DNA of 64,000 nt from Moraxella sp. (GTDB taxonomy: Bacteria; Pseudomonadota; Gammaproteobacteria; Pseudomonadales; Moraxellaceae), in the NCBI GenBank assembly GCA_030528385.1, contig JAUMYZ010000002.1:62001-126000 (forward strand), in the 5' to 3' direction. Below the pieces are notes generated by a model. It did not search any database. It saw nothing but the letters and a program-made list of their open reading frames with translations, and had not been told where the DNA came from. How positions within the stretch are numbered: the stretch's first letter is position 1; the number at the start of each line of letters is the position of its first letter. Shown here piece after piece: positions 4,548 through 54,187 of the stretch. A program made the translations under genes and the position numbers.

Positions 4548-5206
4548 ACGAATTACAGCTTGCCATGCCTGCTCTGATGGCAGGATTTTGGATAACATTA
4601 AAAGTCTTGGTGCTGGCTATTATTGGTGGTCTTGCCATCGGAACACTGCTGGCACTCATGCGACTGTCTGGCAAAAAATGGTTGTCAGTGCCAGCAACTT
4701 TATACGTCAATTATTTTCGCTCCGTGCCACTGCTTTTGGTATTGCTTTGGTTTTATTTTGCTGTGCCGATGATTTATAATTGGATAACGGGCAAATATTT
4801 TACCTTAGATACCGCCTTTACGTCCTGCGTGGTGGCGTTTATGGTCTTTGAAGCGGCGTATTTTTCTGAGATTGTGCGGGCGGGCATTCAGTCTATTGGA
4901 CGGGGGCAAGTCTCCGCTGCTTATGCTCTTGGCATGACTTATAAACAAACCATGCAACTGATTATCCTGCCCCAAACTTTTCGCAAAATGCTTCCTTTGG
5001 TTTTGCAACAATGTATCATCTTATTTCAAGACACGACCTTGGTATTTGCCATTGGTTTGGTGGACTTTTTCCGTGCGTCCTACGTGCGTGGCGACTTGAT
5101 GGGCTATCTGACACCGTATATTTTAGGGGCGGGATTTGTATATTTTATCATCAGTTTGACGGCATCCACAGGGGTCAATGCCCTAAAAAAACGGCTTAGA
5201 TTTTAA
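4544..5206 (+). CDS. gltK: Glutamate/aspartate ABC transporter permease GltK
   Basis: A 220-residue partner permease of GltJ with about five hydrophobic helices and an EAA loop (EIVRAGIQSIGRGQVSAAYALGMT). FRSVPLLLVLLWFYFAVP is typical of GltK. The ATG overlaps the gltJ stop (ATGA), and gltL begins 23 bases after its stop. It works in the inner membrane. Confidence 0.93.
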   Translation: MNELQLAMPALMAGFWITLKVLVLAIIGGLAIGTLLALMRLSGKKWLSVPATLYVNYFRSVPLLLVLLWFYFAVPMIYNWITGKYFTLDTAFTSCVVAFMVFEAAYFSEIVRAGIQSIGRGQVSAAYALGMTYKQTMQLIILPQTFRKMLPLVLQQCIILFQDTTLVFAIGLVDFFRASYVRGDLMGYLTPYILGAGFVYFIISLTASTGVNALKKRLRF

Positions 5207-5229
5207 ACATACTTGATAAGGAAAAAAAT

Positions 5230-22183: not shown

Positions 22184-25100
22184 TTATTCAAAACCACCGC
22201 TTTGATTGATTTCGTCAGCAAAAGCTTTGGCAAAATCGTCATGATTGGTGTCTGTTTTTTCGGCAAGCACATCGTCAGCCACCAAAGTGTCGCCTAGGGC
22301 TTTTTGTGCTTGGCGCTGGCGGTTCTGGTGATAAGCCAGACCCGTACCTGCTGGAATCAAACGACCAACAACCACGTTCTCTTTGAGTCCGCTAAGCTCG
22401 TCCACTTTGCCCATCACAGCCGCCGCCGTCAAGACACGGGTCGTCTCTTGGAATGACGCTGCCGAGATAAAGCTCTCTGTCGCCAAGCTCGCTTTGGTAA
22501 TGCCCAAAAGCTGACGCTCAAACTGCACTGGGAACTTATTATTGGCAATCAATTGCGCGTTAAGCGTGCGGATTTTTGAGTATTCGGCTTGGTCGCCCTT
22601 AAAGTAGTTAGAATCGCCACCATCAACAATTTCAACCTTGCGTAGCATTTGCCGCAAAATCACTTCAATGTGTTTGTCGTTGATTTTAACGCCTTGTAAG
22701 CGGTACACTTCTTGGACTTCGCTGACCACATAATTTGCTAATGCCGTCTCGCCCTTCAGACGCAAGATGTCGTGCGGATTTTGTGGGCCGTCTGACACCA
22801 CTTCACCACGCTCCACCGTCTCACCTTCAAAGACGTTGATTTGACGCCATTTTGGAATCAACTCTTCGTGAGTGTTGCCATCTTCGTCAGTGATGATAAA
22901 GCGGTTTTTGCCTTTGGTTTCTTTGCCAAAGCTCACCACCCCGCTCATTTCTGCCATGATGGCATGGTCTTTGGGACGGCGCGCTTCAAACAAATCTGCC
23001 ACGCGCGGCAAACCACCCGTGATGTCCTTGGTGCCCGATGTGGCTTGTGGTACGCGACCGAGCACCGAGCCTGCAACCACTTTTTCACCTTCGCTGACAC
23101 GAATGGCGGTCTCTGCAGGTAAAAAATAAACCACTTCTTTGCCATCATCGGTGTCTAAGATGACCGCAGGGCGCAAGTCTTTGGCAATGCTTGGGCGGTC
23201 TTTGACTGCCAAGATTTCAAAAGAAGTAACGCCTGTGGTGTCGTCCATCTTGACCGTTGCTGTGGCGCCATCGGCAATGTCGCTAAAGCGCACCGTGCCT
23301 GCAAATTCGGTGATAATTGGGTGAGTATGCGGGTCCCATTTTGCCACCACATCGCCAGTGGCCACTGACGCACCATCATGCACCAAAACATTAGAACCAT
23401 AAGGCACTTTATAGCGCTCACGCTCACGACCTTGAACGTCTGCAACGCCAATTTCTGCCGAACGCGACACCACCACCAAATGACCATCAGCATGTTTGAC
23501 CGTCTTCATATTATGAAAACGCACCACACCATCATTACCAACCGACACGCTGTTATCAACCGTGGCAGAGCTTGCTGCACCGCCCACATGGAACGTACGC
23601 ATGGTCAGCTGCGTGCCTGGCTCACCGATAGACTGAGCCGCCATCACACCAACAGATTCACCAATATTGACCAAATGACCGCGTGCCAAATCACGACCAT
23701 AACACTTGGCACACACCCCATGCACAGATTCGCAAGTAATGACCGAACGCACCCACACTTCGTCAATGGCGTGCTTGTCTAGGGTTTCAACCAAGCGCTC
23801 ATCAATAAGCACGCCTTTGGCAATGACCACTTCGCCATCGTGATTGAGCACATCTTTGGCGGTTACACGACCCAACACACGGTCGCCCAAACGTTCGACA
23901 ATCTCACCACCTTTAATCACAGGCGTCATGCGCTGACCTGTTTCGGTACCACAGTCGTCTTGAGCAATTACCAAGTCTTGTGCCACATCAACCAAACGAC
24001 GAGTCAAATACCCCGAGTTGGCGGTTTTTAGTGCGGTATCAGCCAAACCCTTACGCGCGCCATGCGTTGAGATAAAGTATTGCAACACCGACAATCCTTC
24101 GCGGAAATTGGCTTTAATGGGCGTTTCAATGATGGAACCGTCTGGTTTTGCCATCAAACCACGCATACCCGCCAGCTGACGAATCTGGGTGGCGCTACCA
24201 CGTGCGCCCGAATCAGCCATCATATAAATAGAGTTGAATGACTTTTCGCGTTCAAGCTCACCTTGGGCATTGACCACTTCATCGCTGGACAAGTTGTCCA
24301 TCATCGCGTTGGCAATTTTATCGCTGGTACGCGACCAAATGTCCACCACTTTATTATAACGTTCACCTGACGTTACCACCCCTTGCTCAAACTGCAATTC
24401 AATCTCACGCACTTCAGCATCGGCAGCTTCAACGATTTGCTTTTTGGTGGGCGGAATGACCATGTCTTCCATACCAATAGAAATGCCCGACAAAGTGGCT
24501 TGGGCAAAACCAAGGTACATCAAATGGTCAGCAAACAACACCGACTCTTTTACCCCCAATTTGCGATAACAAGAGTTGAGCAATTTTGAGATGTTTTTCT
24601 TGGTCATCTCCACGTTACATTCGCCAAACGCCATCCCTTCGGGCATGATGTTCCAAATCAACAAACGACCTGCAACGGTGTCTTTAATCTCTGTGTGGGT
24701 GGTTTTTTCACCAGTTTTTTCATCAATGATGGTCTCAGTAACACGCACCTTGATTTTGGCATTGACGTTTAGGTCTTCAGAGCCAATAGCGCGCAGTGCT
24801 TCATTGACCGTACTAAACACCATGCCTTCGCCTTTGGCATTGATATGGCTGCGGCTGATATAGTACAGACCCAAAACCACGTCCTGCGATGGTACGATAA
24901 TCGGCTCACCGTTAGCAGGCGACAAGATGTTATTGGTGGACATCATCAAGGCGCGGGCTTCAAGTTGCGCTTCTAAAGTCAAAGGCACGTGTACCGCCAT
25001 TTGGTCGCCGTCAAAGTCTGCGTTAAATGCCGCGCACACCAAGGGGTGAAGTTGAATGGCCTTGCCTTCAATCAACACAGGTTCAAAGGCCTGCAAACCC

Positions 25101-26401
25101 AAACGGTGCAAGGTCGGTGCACGGTTTAGCAACACAGGGTGCTCACGAATGACGCTGGCAAGCATGTCCCAGACCACCGGCTCTTCACGCTCCACCATCT
25201 TTTTGGCGGCTTTGATGGTGGTGGCAATGTTGTTTTGCAAAAGTTTGGCATAAGTAAATGGTTTAAATAGCTCCAACGCCATTTTCTTGGGCAAACCACA
25301 CTGGTGCAAACGAAGCGTTGGCCCAACCACAATCACCGAACGACCCGAGTAATCCACGCGTTTACCCAGCAGGTTTTGACGAAAACGCCCTTGCTTGCCC
25401 TTAATCATGTCAGCCAGCGATTTTAAGGGGCGTTTGTTTGAACCAGTGATGGCGCGACCACGACGACCATTGTCAAGCAGCGCATCCACCGCTTCTTGGA
25501 GCATGCGTTTTTCGTTGCGCACAATGATGTCAGGAGCGTTAAGTTCCAACAGACGCTTTAAACGGTTGTTGCGGTTAATGACGCGGCGGTACAAATCGTT
25601 CAAATCCGATGTCGCAAAACGACCACCTTCCAAAGGCACCAGCGGACGCAAATCCGGCGGCAATACTGGCAACACCGTCATCACCATCCATTCAGGCTTA
25701 TTACCAGAATCACGGAACGCTTCCAAGAGCTTTAGGCGCTTGGACATTTTTTTGAGTTTGGTCTCAGAACCTGTTTGGGGAATGTCGGCACGCAACTCTT
25801 CAATCTCGCGCTCAACATCAATGTCTTTGAGCAAATCCTGCACCGCTTCAGCGCCCATTTTGGCGATAAACTCATCGCCATACTGCTCAAGAGCGTTAAA
25901 ATACTGCTCATCATCTAGCAGCTGGTATTTTTCAAGATTGGTCATACCAGGGTCGGTAACAATATAGCTTTCAAAATAGAGCACCCGCTCAATATCACGC
26001 AGCGTGATGTCAAGCAGCAAGCCAATACGGCTGGGCAACGATTTTAAAAACCAAATATGCGCCACAGGGCTAGCAAGCTCAATATGCCCCATACGCTCAC
26101 GACGCACTTTGGCGGCGGTTACTTCAACACCACATTTCTCGCAAATAATGCCTTGAAATTTGCGGCGCTTATATTTGCCACACAAACATTCAAAATCTTT
26201 TACAGGACCAAAGATTTTGGCACAAAACAAGCCATCACGCTCTGGTTTAAAGGTGCGGTAGTTAATCGTTTCAGGTTTTTTTACTTCGCCATAAGACCAA
26301 GATTGGATGGTGTCGGGCGATGCCAAAGAAATTTGAATGCTGTCAAACTCTTTCATGCCTGCATCTACAGGTGCTTTCATATTGTCTAATAAATCTTTCA
26401 A
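22184..26401 (-). CDS. rpoC: RNA polymerase beta' subunit
   Basis: A 1405-residue catalytic subunit, normal length. The N-terminal zinc site is [20 protein letters not shown] (about residue 70). The magnesium-binding active site is [12 protein letters not shown] (about residue 460). The second zinc cluster is [19 protein letters not shown], and the bridge/trigger region includes [18 protein letters not shown]. It is transcribed after rpoB with a 55-base gap and ends at a strong terminator. No insertion or frameshift was seen. Confidence 0.99.
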
Positions 26402-26456
26402 AAGATTTCTCCGCTCAATTTATCTTAATTGATAACATGCCATTGGTTGTACTGAT

Positions 26457-29400
26457 TTACTTTTTTTCTCTTAAATCAATGTTAATGCCCAATGAGCGAA
26501 TTTCTTTGGTTAATACATTGAACGATTCTGGCATACCAGGATTCATGTACTGTTCACCATCAACGATGTTTTTGTACATACGCGTACGCCCTTCCACATC
26601 GTCCGATTTGACGGTAAGCATTTCTTGTAAGGTATAAGTCGCACCATAAGCTTCAAGCGCCCAAACTTCCATCTCACCAAAACGCTGACCGCCAAACTGT
26701 GCTTTACCACCAAGTGGCTGCTGAGTAACCAAACTGTACGAGCCCGTTGAGCGCGCGTGCATTTTGTCATCAACCAAGTGGTTGAGTTTGAGCATATACA
26801 TATAGCCAACCGTTACAGGGCGGTCAAACTTTTTGCCTGTGCGTCCATCATACAGCGTTTGCTGACCTGTGGGCGATAAGCCTGCCAGTTTTAACAGCTC
26901 TTTAATTTGTGTTTCTTTGGCACCATCAAAGACCGCCGTCCCCATGGGCACGCCTTGGCGCAAATTGTTTGCCAATGCCAACAAATCTTCGTCAGACAAA
27001 CTGTCCAAATCCACCTGCTCGCCGCCAACTTGGTTATAAATCTTGTCCAAAAACGCTCTAAGCTCACCAACACTGGCTTGGGTGCGCAACATCTCATTGA
27101 TTTTGTCGCCCAAACCATGTGCCGCCATGCCCAAATGCGTCTCTAGCACCTGACCGATATTCATGCGCGAAGGCACGCCCAACGGATTGAGCACAATGTC
27201 AATGGGATTGCCTTTTTCGTCATAAGGCATGTCTTCAACAGGCATAATGCGCGAAACCACACCCTTATTACCGTGGCGACCCGCCATCTTGTCGCCTGGC
27301 TGAATGCGACGTTTGACCGCCAAATAGACCTTAACAATCTTTTGTACGCCATGCGCCAAGTCATCACCTGCGGTCAGTTTGCGTTTCTTTTCGGCATAAC
27401 GGTCATCAATTTCTTTTTGTTTGTCCGCCAAAAACTCTGCAATTTGCCCCAAACGTTCAGAGATTTCTTCTTCAATTGGCTGGATGTCAAACAAAGTCTG
27501 CAGTGGCAGGTTCTCCAAATCGCCTTCGGTCAACACAGTGCCCGCCTTAAACCCAGCACCACCACTGACCTTCTGACCCGACAACAAAGTCATCACTCGA
27601 CCACGTGCCGCTGCTTCAAAAATCACCAACTCTTCCTTTAAATCTTTGCGATAGTTGTCCAGCATCGCTTTTTCAATGGATTTGGCACGGCTGTCTTTTT
27701 CCAATCCATCGCGCGTAAACACTTGTACGTCAATGACTGTTCCTTTGGTTGATGATGGCACACGCAAAGACGTGTCTTTAACATCAGCAGCCTTTTCACC
27801 AAAGATGGCACGCAATAGCTTCTCTTCTGGGGTAAGCTGACTTTCACCTTTTGGCGTTACCTTACCCACCAAAATATCGCCTGCGTCCACTTCTGCCCCA
27901 ATGTAGACAATCCCTGCTTCGTCTAGGTTTGCCAGCGCAGCTTCGCCCACATTTGGAATGTCGCCTGTGATTTCTTCAGGCCCCAACTTGGTATCGCGAG
28001 CAATACAAGTCAGCTCTTGAATGTGAATGGTGGTAAAACGGTCTTCTTGCACCACGCGCTCAGAGAGCAAAATGGAATCTTCAAAGTTATAACCATTCCA
28101 CGGCATGAACGCCACACGCATATTTTGACCCAGCGCCAACTCGCCCAAGTCGGTAGAAGGCCCATCTGCCAAAATATCGCCTTTGGCAATCACATCGCCA
28201 GCATTGACGATGACACGTTGGTTGATACAGGTATTTTGGTTGGAACGCGTGTATTTAATCAGGTTATAAATATCAATGCCCGCTTCTCCCGCCAACATCT
28301 CATCTTCATTCACGCGCACAATGATACGACTGGCGTCCACTTCTTCAATGACGCCGCCACGCTCTGCCACCACACACACGCCACTGTCGCGCGCAACATT
28401 GCGTTCCATGCCAGTTCCAACCAAGGGTTTATCACTGCGCAAAGTAGGCACGGCTTGGCGTTGCATGTTTGAGCCCATCAAAGCACGGTTGGCGTCATCG
28501 TGCTCCAAAAACGGAATCAAGCTGGCCGCCACCGACACCACTTGGCGGGGTGATACGTCCATATGCGTTACTTTTTCAGGGCTCATGCGCACCGATTCGC
28601 CTTGATAACGCACCATAACCATCTCTTCGGTCAGCTCACCTTTATCGTTCATCGGTGAATCTGCCTGCGCAATGACCGTACCCACTTCTTCAATGGCAGA
28701 CATGTACTCAGTACCATCAGTTACTTTACCGTCCACCACACGGCGATAAGGCGTCTCCAAAAAACCGAACTTATTGGTCTTGGCAAACACTGCCAGTGAG
28801 TTAATCAAACCAATATTTGGACCTTCGGGCGTCTCAATCGGACACACACGACCATAATGAGTAGCGTGAACGTCGCGCACTTCAAAGCCTGCACGCTCAC
28901 GCGTCAAACCACCTGGCCCTAGGGCTGAGACACGGCGTTTGTGGGTAATTTCTGACAATGGGTTGTTTTGATCCATAAATTGCGACAACTGGCTTGAACC
29001 AAAAAATTCTTTGATAGACGCCACCACGGGTTTGGAATTAATCAAATCTTGGGGGGACAGACTGTCAGACTCAGCCGTTGTCAAACGCTCTTTTACAGCC
29101 CGCTCCACGCGCGCCAAACCAATGCGGAATTGATTTTCGGTCATCTCACCCACCGAGCGAATGCGGCGGTTACCCAAGTGGTCAATGTCATCTACCGTAC
29201 CGCGACCATCACGAATCTCAATCAACTCTTTTAACACATCAATGATGTCTTCTTTGGACAGCACACCTTGTTCGCGCTGCACTTCTATGTCATCTGTATC
29301 AATAAACTCACGACCCAGACGGCGATTAAATTTCATGCGCCCAACATTGGACAGGTCATAACGCTCATGACTAAAGAACATTGATTCAAACAGCTTTTCG

Positions 29401-30554
29401 GCGGTTTCTAAGGTTGGTGGCTCGCCTGGACGCATGACTTTATAAATTTCAATCAATGCTTCTTCGCGAGTTTTGACCACATCGGCACGCAAGGTATCTG
29501 CAATATAAGCACCGTGGTCAATGTCATTGGTAAACAAAATATTAAAATGTGCCACGCCTTTGTCAAGCAACTTAACCAATAATTCATGGTCAATCAACGT
29601 ATTGGCATAAGCAACCACGTCATCATTCACCACGATGTCTTCTGCCAAAACGCGCTCGTACAAATACTCGTCGGGCACGGCAAGTTTGGTGATGCCAGAT
29701 TGCTTGATTTCTTTGACGCGGCGGGCATTGATACGCTTGCCCTGCTCAACAATCACTTTACCATCAGCCGTAACGATGTCAAACTGCGCCATCTCACCAC
29801 TGAGTCGCTCAGCAATCAGCTCAATTTCAAAACCTTGCTCGCCCTTTGATACGTTGACGGTCTCAAAAAAGGTGTGCAAAATGTCTGTGGTTGACATACC
29901 AATGGCACGCAAAATAATCGTTGCCAGCAGTTTGCGACGGCGGTCAATACGCGCATAAACCAAATCTTTGATGTCAAATTCAAAATCCAACCACGAGCCA
30001 CGATAAGGAATGATACGCGCATGATAAAGCACTTTGCCGCTTGAGTGCTTGCCTTTGTCATGGTCAAAAAACACCCCTGGTGAACGATGTAATTGGGACA
30101 CAATGACGCGCTCTGTGCCGTTGATAATAAAGGTGCCATTTTTAGTCATCAGGGGAATCTCACCCATGTACACATTGCTTTCGCGAATGTCTTTGATGGC
30201 CACCTTACCGTCTTTATTGTCTTTGTCTTTGATGATAAGGCGAATTTTGACACGCAAAGGCGCAGCAAAGGTTGAACCACGCATGATACATTCACGCTCA
30301 TCAAACTCAGGCGCACCCAAATAATACTCAACAAACTGCAACTCTGCCCCACCAGCATGGCTTTGAATGGGAAAAATTGAAGTGAACGCCGCTTGCAAAC
30401 CAAAGTTTTTGCGCGCTTTGGGCTTGGTGTTTTTTTGCAAAAATTGCTCGTAAGAATCCGTTTGAATGGCGAGCAAATTTGGCACCTGCATCACATCTGG
30501 CAGCCTAGAAAAACTTTTGCGAATGCGTTTTTTTTCAGTATAAGAATATGCCAT
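26457..30554 (-). CDS. rpoB: RNA polymerase beta subunit
   Basis: A 1365-residue subunit forming the active-site cleft with beta'. The rifampicin region [21 protein letters not shown] and the following [14 protein letters not shown] are identical to sensitive E. coli at the usual resistance positions (Asp516, His526 and Ser531 equivalents), so rifampicin sensitivity is predicted. The C-terminal [14 protein letters not shown]-like segment ([17 protein letters not shown]) and [11 protein letters not shown] are intact. It is preceded by a 362-base gap with an attenuator. Confidence 0.99.
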
Positions 30555-50899: not shown

Positions 50900-53800
50900 A
50901 TGAGCCAAGCAACCGACTATAAAAACACCCTAAACCTTGCTGATACGCCCTTTCCCATGCGTGCTGACCTTGCCAAACGCGAACCTACATGGCTAGATGA
51001 ATGGCAACAAGATGGGCTATACCAAAAAGTGCGACAAGCCAAAAAGGGACTGCCCAAATATATCCTACACGATGGCCCGCCCTATGCCAACGGTCAAATC
51101 CACCTAGGTCATGCGGTAAACAAAGTCCTAAAAGACATCATCACCAAATCCAAAAACCTATCAGGCTTTGACGCTGTGTATGTGCCAGGCTGGGACTGTC
51201 ATGGCTTACCCATTGAACAAAAAGTAGAACAACAAGTCGGCAAAGTCGGGCAAAAAGTAGACGCCAGCAAGTTTCGCCGTCTGTGCCGCGACTACGCCAA
51301 AAGCCAAATCGCCCTACAAATGGCGGACTTCAAACGTCTGGGTGTGCTTGGCGATTGGGACAATCCTTATTTGACCATGAATTTTAGCCAAGAAGCAAAT
51401 ATTGTGCGAGCTTTGGGCAAGATTTATGACAATGGACACATCGTGCGTGGCTTAAAGCCTGTAAACTGGTGCTTGGACTGTGGCTCTGCCCTTGCCGAAG
51501 CCGAAGTGGAATACGCCGACAAAAAAAGCGACGCCATCTATGTGGGCTTTGACATCGTCAATCGTGATGCCCTGCCCCAAACGGCAAATATTGACGGCGA
51601 GCTACAAGCGGTGATTTGGACAACCACCCCTTGGACACTGCCCGCCAACCAAGCCATCAGCGTCCACGAAAAACTAGATTATGTGGTGGTACAAGGCACT
51701 TTGCCCCCGCCTGCCTTTAAACTGCCCACAACCTTAACGGCGGATAACTTTCATCTAAGAGCACTCAGCAAAGACGACAAAGACGCCTTGTGGCAAGTGG
51801 CAAAAGACCCTGTCATTTGGGAATTTATGCCCGAAAAACGCCACGAACCTGCTGTTTTTGACAAATATTTTAAACAATCGCTCGCCCAGCACGCCTATGC
51901 CATCATTGACAATGTCAGCGGACAAGTGATTGGGGCGACACGCTTTTATGATGACAAGCCCAATGACGACAGCATTGCCATTGGCTACACCTTTTTTGCC
52001 CCAAGTTATTGGGGAACAGGCGTCAATGCCAAAATCAAACAAGCGATGTTGGCTTATGCCTTTACCCAACGTCAAACAGTGCTGTTTTATGTCTTCCCAG
52101 ACAACAAGCGTTCTGCTGCTGCCCTAACAAAATTGCAGGCAGTTTATCAAGGCTTTGATGAACAAAGCCAGCGTGATGTTTATGCCATCACCGCCCCAAA
52201 TCCCAGTGCCAAAGTTGCCAAAAGTTTTATCATTGCCAAAGACTTGCTGGCAGATTTTGTCAGCACAACGGGGCTTGGCAATCATCAAGTTTTGACCACC
52301 ATCAGCGGCAAAGAGCTGACCGCTCTGTCTGCCCAACACCCACTTATCAACAGTCGCCAAGTTCCCATCATCACAGGCGAGCACGTTACTGCCGACAGCG
52401 GTACAGGACTGGTGCACACTGCCCCTGCTCACGGTGTGGATGATTATAATATGGGTATTAAATACAGCTTGCCGACCGACAATCCTGTCAGCGGTGGCGG
52501 CGTGTATCTGCCTGAAGCGATGGTGTTTGTCGGTGAGCATATTTATAAAGCCCAACCCAAAATCATTGATACGCTTGCCAGCACAGGCAATTTGCTCAAA
52601 CACAGTAAAATCACCCACAGTTATCCGCATTGCTGGCGACACAAAACGCCGATTATCTTTCGTGCCACGCCCCAATGGTTTATCAGCATGGAAAAAGAAG
52701 GCTTACGCCAGAAAGCCTTAGACGATATTAAAAAGGCAACTTGGACACCCGCTTGGGGGCAAAACCGCATTGAAGCGATGGTTGAAGGTCGCCCCGACTG
52801 GTGTATCTCTCGCCAGCGTACTTGGGGCGTGCCCATTCCCTTTTTTATTCACAAAGAAACTGGCGAGCTGCACCCACAGACCAGCCAGCTGATTGAACAA
52901 GCCGCCCAAATGATTGAAAAAGGCGGCATTGAAGCGTGGTTTGAAGCCACCCCCGCCGACTTTTTGGGCACAGAAGCAGGCGATTATGACAAATGCACCG
53001 ACACACTGGACGTGTGGTTTGACTCAGGCACAACCCACTTTGCCGTACTGGACAAAGACGACAATCTTACCAACCCTGCCGATATGTACCTAGAAGGCTC
53101 AGACCAACATCGTGGCTGGTTTCAAACATCGCTTTTAACCAGTGAAGCCATCTATGGGCGAGCTCCGTTTAAGCAGGTTTTAACGCATGGTTTTGTGGTA
53201 GACGAAAACGGTCGCAAGATGAGCAAATCGCTTGGCAACATCATTGAGCCACAAAAAGAGATTGATAAAACAGGGGCGGACATCTTGCGTCTGTGGATTG
53301 CGTCCGCCGATTATCGCTATGAGATGAGTGCAGGGGCAAAGGTGTTTGCAGGAGCGGTGGACAATTATCGGCGTATCCGTAACACCGTGCGTTTTTTGCT
53401 TGCCAATACCAGCGATTTTGACATAAACAAAGACAGCGTGCCAACAGATGGGCTGGTCAGCCTTGATAAGTACATTTTGCACAAAACCACCCAAGCTCAA
53501 CAAACCATCACCCAAGCCTATGCTGACATGGATTTTCACAGCGTGGTGCAAACGGTGAGCGTGTTTTGCTCGCAGGATTTGGGCGGATTTTATTTAGATA
53601 TTATTAAAGACCGCACCTACACCACCAAGGCAGACGGCAAGCCCCGCCGTTCGGCACAGACCGCTTTGTATCACATCGCCCAAGCCTTAGTCCGCTGGAT
53701 TGCACCGATTTTGCCATTTACCGCCCAAGAAGCGTGGCAATTTATCCGCCCCAATGACAATCAGGACAAATACGTCTTTACCCAGCTGTGGTACGCCGTG

Positions 53801-54187
53801 CCCACGCCCGATATGGACGCCATTACCATCAGCGATTGGGAACAAATCGTCGCCGTCAAAGACACGGTCAATAAGGCGATGGACGAAGCACGCACGGCTA
53901 AGCTCATCAGTAGCAATCTCACCGCCAAAGCCACCATCAGCACCGATGGCGACACCTTTACTGCCCTAAATAAACTGACCGATGAAGCCAGATTTGTGTT
54001 CATCACCAGTGATGTAGAGCTAAAACAAGGCGAAAACAGCGTACTCATCACGCCTGCCGATGGCAAAAAGTGCGTACGCTGCTGGCATATCCGTCCTGAT
54101 GTCGGCACACACGATAAGCACCCCGAGCTTTGCTCTCGCTGTGTGAGCAACGTGGACGGTGATGGGGAAGTGCGCCACTATGCTTAA
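50900..54187 (+). CDS. ileS: Isoleucyl-tRNA synthetase with inserted GNAT domain
   Basis: A 1095-residue class I synthetase charging tRNA-Ile, about 155 longer than the 938-residue E. coli enzyme. HIGH-type motif HLGH is at residues 68-71, the editing motif [10 protein letters not shown] at 241-250, [16 protein letters not shown] at 501-516, KMSKS at 773-777 and C-terminal zinc cysteines CVRCW..CSRC. The extra length is a block at about residues 267-433, in the CP1 editing domain, that reads as a GNAT acetyltransferase (see the separate entry). The frame is continuous, so it is not an assembly frameshift. It is followed by lspA with an 8-base overlap. Confidence 0.97.
51698..52200 (+). other. 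GNAT acetyltransferase-like domain inserted in IleRS
   Basis: IleRS residues about 267-433 have no counterpart in the E. coli enzyme but show a complete RimJ/RimL-like GNAT pattern. The start is [20 protein letters not shown], the middle strands are [18 protein letters not shown], the acetyl-CoA loop is [20 protein letters not shown], and the end is [23 protein letters not shown]. It replaces a short loop between two editing-domain motifs. In-frame ends and the lack of stops show it is translated. Acetyl-CoA binding is inferred from the WGTGVN loop; catalytic activity is unknown. Confidence 0.8.

Follow-up and report, generated by a model that had tools for sequence, protein, structure and literature searches.

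The window, as we call the whole 64,000-nucleotide stretch of Moraxella sp. DNA analysed here, contains on its forward strand an ileS gene coding an isoleucyl-tRNA synthetase (IleRS), whose editing domain harbours an embedded acetyltransferase domain of the GNAT type. The gene and its features are the following.

50900..54187, forward strand: ileS, 1095 aa, containing the embedded GNAT domain (Pfam, NCBIfam, genome search)
51620..51649, forward strand: threonine-rich editing peptide, residues 241-250, intact (IleRS alignment)
51695..52213, forward strand: block inserted into a hairpin turn within the editing domain, residues 266-438 (alignment with insert-free IleRS; phmmer against 8c9e)
51752..52135, forward strand: GNAT domain proper, residues 285-412 (PF13302)
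52010..52027, forward strand: acetyl-CoA loop W371-G-T-G-V-N376 (alignment with the PacT homologue 8gxk; conserved in carriers)
52112..52114, forward strand: S405, aligned with RimL Ser141 and MccE Ser553 (alignments; role according to excerpts of PMC4363471)
52415..52447, forward strand: second editing motif, residues 506-516, intact (IleRS alignment)

The open reading frame has no internal stops, and its product matched in Pfam the class-I synthetase, anticodon-binding and zinc-finger domains, together with Acetyltransf_3 (PF13302; E 3.4e-18, 67.1 bits versus a gathering cut-off of 25.4). The top NCBIfam match was NF040702.1, ileS_w_GNAT, scoring 2088.9 bits over model positions 1-1100 (cut-off 1999); the equivalog cut-off of the IleRS model TIGR00392 (621.4 bits) was also passed, with 903 bits. 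The IleRS of the E. coli control genome matched NF040702 below its cut-off. The architecture is thus already catalogued as a curated NCBIfam exception model, and NCBI curators had therefore set it apart before this analysis. A search of the whole genome of the window (20 contigs, 99.98% complete) with PF13302 gave four matches, three of them above cut-off, ileS being the one in a 1108-aa open frame. The same genome contains a single IleRS-level match among the matches listed, the next one having 25% identity, from which we infer that the fusion protein must serve as the IleRS of the cell. The downstream neighbour of ileS is lspA, while the upstream open frame has no NCBIfam match; rpoB and rpoC (TIGR02013, TIGR02386) adjoin each other on the reverse strand at 22184-30554, about 20 kb from ileS.

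Alignment with insert-free relatives places the block in the turn between the segments ..DYxxVxx and ..xFIVAxDL, in a region of the CP1 editing domain that forms a beta-hairpin in IleRS. A phmmer comparison with the solved IleRS 8c9e puts the break at residues 266|442 of the window protein, corresponding to 257|261 of 8c9e. The block is separated by 15 residues from the threonine-rich peptide and by 67 residues from the second editing motif, and the turn that accommodates it is variable among the insert-free relatives. Near the block, only short imperfect or two-copy repeats were found, which were taken as chance rather than as insertion scars. A sequence-only reading of this DNA had described a GNAT domain with a full RimJ/RimL-like pattern, including an acetyl-CoA loop, at 51698-52200, within the CP1 editing domain and between two intact editing motifs. 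Indeed, both motifs are intact, the bounds agree within a few residues with those obtained from the alignment, and the domain search that the reading called for returned a GNAT, so that the outcome in which no such fold would be found falls away. The kinship with RimJ/RimL and the retained loop were borne out as well, by the PF13302 match, by the 8gxk alignment and by the RimL/MccE profile comparison described below.

The HIGH and KMSKS motifs, the threonine-rich editing peptide, the editing His and Asp and the zinc cysteines are functional motifs of IleRS. L017, L019, L021 and L118 were not included in the alignment A2. In the aligned IleRS, T241-243, N250, H506, D515, the HLGH sequence and the four zinc cysteines were identical in 10/10 carriers of the insert and in 16/16 non-carriers. 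The KMSKS motif of the window lies at 53216-53230 and reads KMSKS; the KLSKS variant occurs in 15 of the 26 aligned IleRS, seven of ten carriers and eight of 16 non-carriers, the remainder having KMSKS. No column of the core showed disjoint residues between the ten carriers and the 16 non-carriers, and the strongest difference in residue frequency between them was equalled in 77/300 label shuffles; co-adaptation of the core to the insert was rejected on these results. The absence of a core residue tracking the insert would be neutral to negative for a tight functional link between the GNAT and the editing site.

The residues expected for cofactor binding are largely retained in the block. PacT contacts acetyl-CoA through M47, T100, L102, G108, G110, N140, L141, R142 and K149, as given in excerpts of PMC9561280. 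Their counterparts were located through 8gxk, a PacT homologue aligned with the block, and through the spacing between them. Six contacts are kept in the inserts (T/S364, G372, G374, N402, R404 and K411); at the position of L102 there is a hydrophobic residue, L141 is not conserved, and no counterpart could be assigned to M47. Among the ten carriers, G372, N402, R404 and S405 are invariant, G374 is replaced by S in one (G007) and K411 by N in another (G004). S405 aligns with RimL Ser141 and MccE Ser553, to which a general-acid role is assigned in excerpts of PMC4363471. The genes used for this comparison were rimL of E. coli K-12 and a MccE-like gene that matches the published pocket at residues 436, 451, 453, 466, 493, 511 and 553. 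A profile built from the inserts and their relatives matched a RimL/MccE profile with 98.9-99.3% probability at 14-15% identity, while a shallow profile of the inserts only, compared with E. coli RimL alone, reached 6.5%; the match shows that they have a class of fold in common, but it cannot tell one GNAT function from another. As to the adenine sandwich of MccE, Phe466 is matched in the alignment by a conserved Y/F (Y323), and Trp453 by M/L/T/S at a place where the positioning of the adjacent gap is uncertain. W307 and F320, which have the same 13-residue spacing as Trp453 and Phe466, were considered as copies of this pair and rejected, hhalign placing W453 elsewhere. By sequence, the nearest solved structures are of the PacT type (1yre and the homologues 8gxk, E 1.5e-13, 8gxf and 8gxj), not RimL. 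On these conserved residues, the block is predicted to bind acetyl-CoA and to be active within the fusion.

The fusion was found in seven of 22 genomes of the genus of the window, 19 of which gave an IleRS, and in three of six genomes of a second genus. Overall, the IleRS search covered 57 genomes, G003, G017 and G019 giving none; G019 is listed as 100% complete, yet it provided no IleRS, RpoB or GNAT candidate. Within the family, 299 genomes were scanned and ten fusions recovered; the other matches listed lie in frames of at most 248 aa. The fusion of the window was the only one in a scan of 369 genomes of the class (E up to 1e-15), and its protein the only one to pass the NF040702 cut-off among 398 genomes of the phylum, 369 of which had an IleRS-type match; a GNAT of quite different sequence, if fused to IleRS, would escape both scans. 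The open frames that hold the IleRS-type matches of three genomes (G330, G1041 and G1059) are unusually long, at 1305, 1179 and 1219 aa; the extra length may be merely an upstream open frame. All ten carriers have the insert at one common site, the open frames measuring 1102-1158 aa and the insert identities being 45-98%. An assembly artefact, the other outcome that the sequence-only reading had named as fatal to its claim, is practically out of the question, given the same site in ten genomes of two genera, two of them single-contig assemblies (G001 and G007), and the separate NCBIfam model.

The fusion is real and it is kept by selection. Pairwise dN/dS values were 0.08-0.15 for the insert (seven carrier pairs) and 0.05-0.12 for the IleRS core (six computable pairs); the insert is under purifying selection. 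Its GC content is lower than that of the core in all ten carriers.

Free-standing GNATs from other genera (L046 and L066-L071), having 32-40% identity with the insert of the window and including the W and CoA-loop motifs, form the sister group of the inserts. In a tree of the ten inserts, these seven relatives and four more distant GNATs (11 of 14 free-standing frames, L048, L050 and L073 being left out), the inserts form one clade, with support 86/93 (unstarred), which was recovered against the seven relatives in all 200 bootstrap trees; as the ten inserts form one clade, a single capture of the GNAT by ileS would be the simplest reading. None of the three free-standing GNATs tested matched an NCBIfam model specific to them. 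Of their eight neighbourhoods, three were inspected, with translations judged by eye: no antitoxin-like gene adjoined the GNAT in these three, and in one an ArsR-like HTH gene lies about 2.6 kb away. At L127, a free-standing sister GNAT (4710-5222) begins 57 bases after a 612-aa gene which, from its translation, is presumably glmS; the two may be co-transcribed. A phage origin of the GNAT was rejected, since none of 50,697 phage records was matched by tblastn with the core GNAT at E 1e-5. The plasmid matches comprised 33 records, all below 60% identity; among the 20 of these listed, those with an annotation are ordinary GNAT genes. Identity with a defence system was likewise discarded, as no PADLOC model matched up to E 1.

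The distribution of the insert is patchy even among close relatives. The tree of the IleRS core, built on 29 rows after removal of the insert, requires six changes of insert label, at least five of which are forced by starred branches; in the RpoB tree (TIGR02013 marker, 22 rows) six changes are required, all forced. In both trees, G001, which has the insert, adjoins G002 and G018, which lack it. The insert is not clearly clustered on either tree, because shuffled labels often need equally few changes (124/500 for RpoB, 90/500 for the core). RpoB was used in addition because ValRS, initially a candidate species marker, had to be rejected: its tree (L075-L094, 20 genomes, without G009) conflicts strongly with those of IleRS and RpoB, a conflict that suggests that synthetase genes may recombine often in this genus. 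RpoB matches were absent in five of 27 genomes (G009, G011, G014, G019 and G028). L035, the same contig stretch as L006, was left out, and the partial L030 was not used in trees.

Insert and core also disagree on which carriers are related. G001 and G012 have 83.3% identity in the insert versus 76.5% in the core, whereas G009 and G012 have 66.7% in the insert versus 86.9% in the core. In the far-core tree G009 and G012 are joined (SH-aLRT 99), while in the insert tree G001 groups with G012, and a pairing of G009 with G012 is rejected (AU p 0.0205 for protein, 0.0028 for DNA). At least one lateral exchange of the insert between lineages follows firmly from this disagreement, that between G001 and G012 being the only firm one. 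Further exchanges are likely. A clade of G007 with G001, G004, G009 and G012 is rejected by the far core (p 3e-53) and favoured by the insert tree, which does not exclude the alternative: an insert tree with G007 held to G000 and G015 was not rejected (p 0.19 for protein, 0.08 for DNA), nor was the poorly resolved tree of insert-near columns with G007, G013 and G020 held together (AU p 0.235). In sliding windows along IleRS, G007 is near G013/G020 at both ends and near G009/G001 around the junction. The mosaic-segment signals of G007 and G001 exceeded all 2000 shuffles in a permutation test that treats sites as exchangeable; six of its eight comparisons gave 0/2000 and the others 5/2000 and 11/2000, with the comparison of G012 against G009 and G001 using two references that both carry the insert. 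G051, G046, G022 and G025 were left out of the insert/core identities, the sliding windows and the later analyses, and G028, G031, G035 and G030 also of the far-core and insert-near-column trees. Homologous recombination in the flanks would be the natural mechanism of exchange.

Most acetyl-CoA contacts are retained, as is the catalytic serine, and no other IleRS was found in the genome. On these grounds we tentatively favour, at less than an even chance, an acetyltransferase that is active while attached to a functional IleRS and that most likely N-acetylates the alpha-amine of a small substrate handled by the synthetase. It would then be a plug-in, probably active acetyltransferase, for which we infer the substrate. 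Candidates would be valine, norvaline or homocysteine set free during proofreading, the aminoacyl-adenylate of a misactivated amino acid, or an antibiotic of the aminoacyl-nucleotide kind that imitates such an adenylate; N-acetylation might thus provide, as with RimL and MccE, a second route of clearance or protection beside hydrolytic editing. A small aminoacyl substrate is preferred since the fused synthetase must cope with valine, norvaline and homocysteine. Excerpts of PMC5370406 place homocysteine among the amino acids that IleRS deals with. The preference is also based on RimL and MccE, which acetylate many aminoacyl-adenylates with little preference for the amino acid (excerpts of PMC3817062), and on the patchy, laterally traded alleles, which fit protection against an intermittent challenge. 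Counting against this reading are the superfamily-level similarity to RimL and MccE, the PacT-type closest structures, the loss of L141, the alignment, uncertain at this place, of MccE Trp453 with non-aromatic residues and the lack of a core residue tracking the insert.

A bolder version, which we regard as possible but rather doubtful, is that of a bifunctional synthetase. IleRS is reported to have an aminoacyl-CoA activity, making Ile~S-CoA or Val~S-CoA (excerpts of PMC5370406); the GNAT could N-acetylate these thioesters, or Ile- or Val-adenylate, as a third, acetyl-CoA-dependent kind of proofreading or as drug protection, or it could use the aminoacyl~S-CoA as acyl donor, putting Ile or Val on an amine without tRNA. 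If so, the traded ileS alleles would spread a new chemistry of proofreading or protection.

The kinship with PacT, which excerpts of PMC9561280 report to acetylate aminoacyl-tRNAs, directs attention to the tRNA itself: as with ItaT, whose main target is Ile-tRNA(Ile) and whose action is countered by Pth (excerpts of PMC9177977), the domain could acetylate Ile-tRNA(Ile), or mischarged Val-tRNA(Ile), at the amino group while the tRNA is on IleRS. This could serve to switch translation off, or else to deliver the mischarged tRNA to clearance by peptidyl-tRNA hydrolase. However, acetylation of the cognate Ile-tRNA by the sole IleRS would be self-toxic without an antitoxin, and no antitoxin-like gene lies beside ileS or, in the three neighbourhoods inspected, beside the free-standing relatives, which makes this substrate unlikely. 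We give similarly little weight to a protein or peptide substrate, such as lysines or N-termini of ribosomal proteins, of neighbouring proteins or of IleRS, by which translation would be coupled to the acetyl-CoA level; the RimJ/RimL-type kinship and the solved relative 2z0z, by name a ribosomal-protein-alanine acetyltransferase, speak for it, while the patchiness in close relatives argues against a core regulatory role.

That the insert behaves as a module, exchanged and without a tracking core residue, and that free-standing sister genes exist, would also be expected if the domain had kept the unrelated small-molecule or polyamine-like substrate of its free-standing ancestor and were riding on IleRS for expression; this appears improbable, in that ten carriers hold the insert at one site although a separate gene would do. 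The variable turn and the repeated gain or loss would suit a mere passenger as well, folded and tolerated at the surface, of no enzymatic benefit and spread by recombination with ileS. Passive insertion was one of the options left by the sequence-only reading: its purely passive form is made less likely by the kept motifs and by a purifying selection close to that on the core, part of which, like the conservation of CoA and catalytic residues, folding constraint alone could explain. The passenger as a whole has in our judgement a low probability.

Synthetases that proofread belong to the best conserved of all enzymes, and it is unusual for the editing domain of what is probably the only IleRS of a cell to contain a second enzyme. 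The fusion makes it testable whether acetylation can work beside hydrolysis in clearing wrong amino acids, or can shield the synthetase from aminoacyl-nucleotide inhibitors; the repeated gain and loss in close relatives, with no core residue tracking the insert, supplies natural pairs with and without it. As to earlier descriptions, the sequence-only reading knew of no described role for a GNAT at this site. The titles and beginnings of abstracts listed from the open PMC literature, which leaves subscription journals mostly outside, contained no description of the fusion, in agreement with that statement; the architecture itself, on the other hand, already had its curated model.

The free-standing GNATs L046 and L066-L071 are the sister group of the insert but are separate genes. 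RimL and MccE, acetyltransferases of aminoacyl-adenylates and of L12, have by profile the same superfamily fold, with the catalytic serine aligned; they differ by the low identity, by the adenine-stacking Trp, which in an alignment uncertain at this place is not matched by an aromatic residue in the insert, and by not being fused to a synthetase. PacT of the PacTA system (1yre; 8gxk, 8gxf, 8gxj) includes the closest solved relatives by sequence and has most acetyl-CoA contacts in common; the insert, unlike PacT, is embedded in IleRS, and the similarity has E values of merely 1e-13 to 1e-9. The adjacent Xre or RHH antitoxin gene that is the hallmark of PacT, ItaT and TacT was not seen beside ileS, and because of this the fusion is not filed as a toxin-antitoxin GNAT; nor is it filed as RimL or MccE. 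Ordinary IleRS (TIGR00392; solved 8c9e, 1ffy) has the same checked catalytic, editing and zinc residues, without the approximately 173 extra residues of the fusion at turn 257-261 of 8c9e. NF040702.1 (isoleucine--tRNA ligase, N-acetyltransferase domain-containing; an exception-type model) has the same full-length architecture, no difference being seen. Since this architecture was already catalogued, the value of the present analysis is in function and history and not in the discovery of the fusion: new here are the patchy carriers, the one insert clade, the purifying selection, the at least one exchange and a core in which no residue separates carriers from non-carriers.
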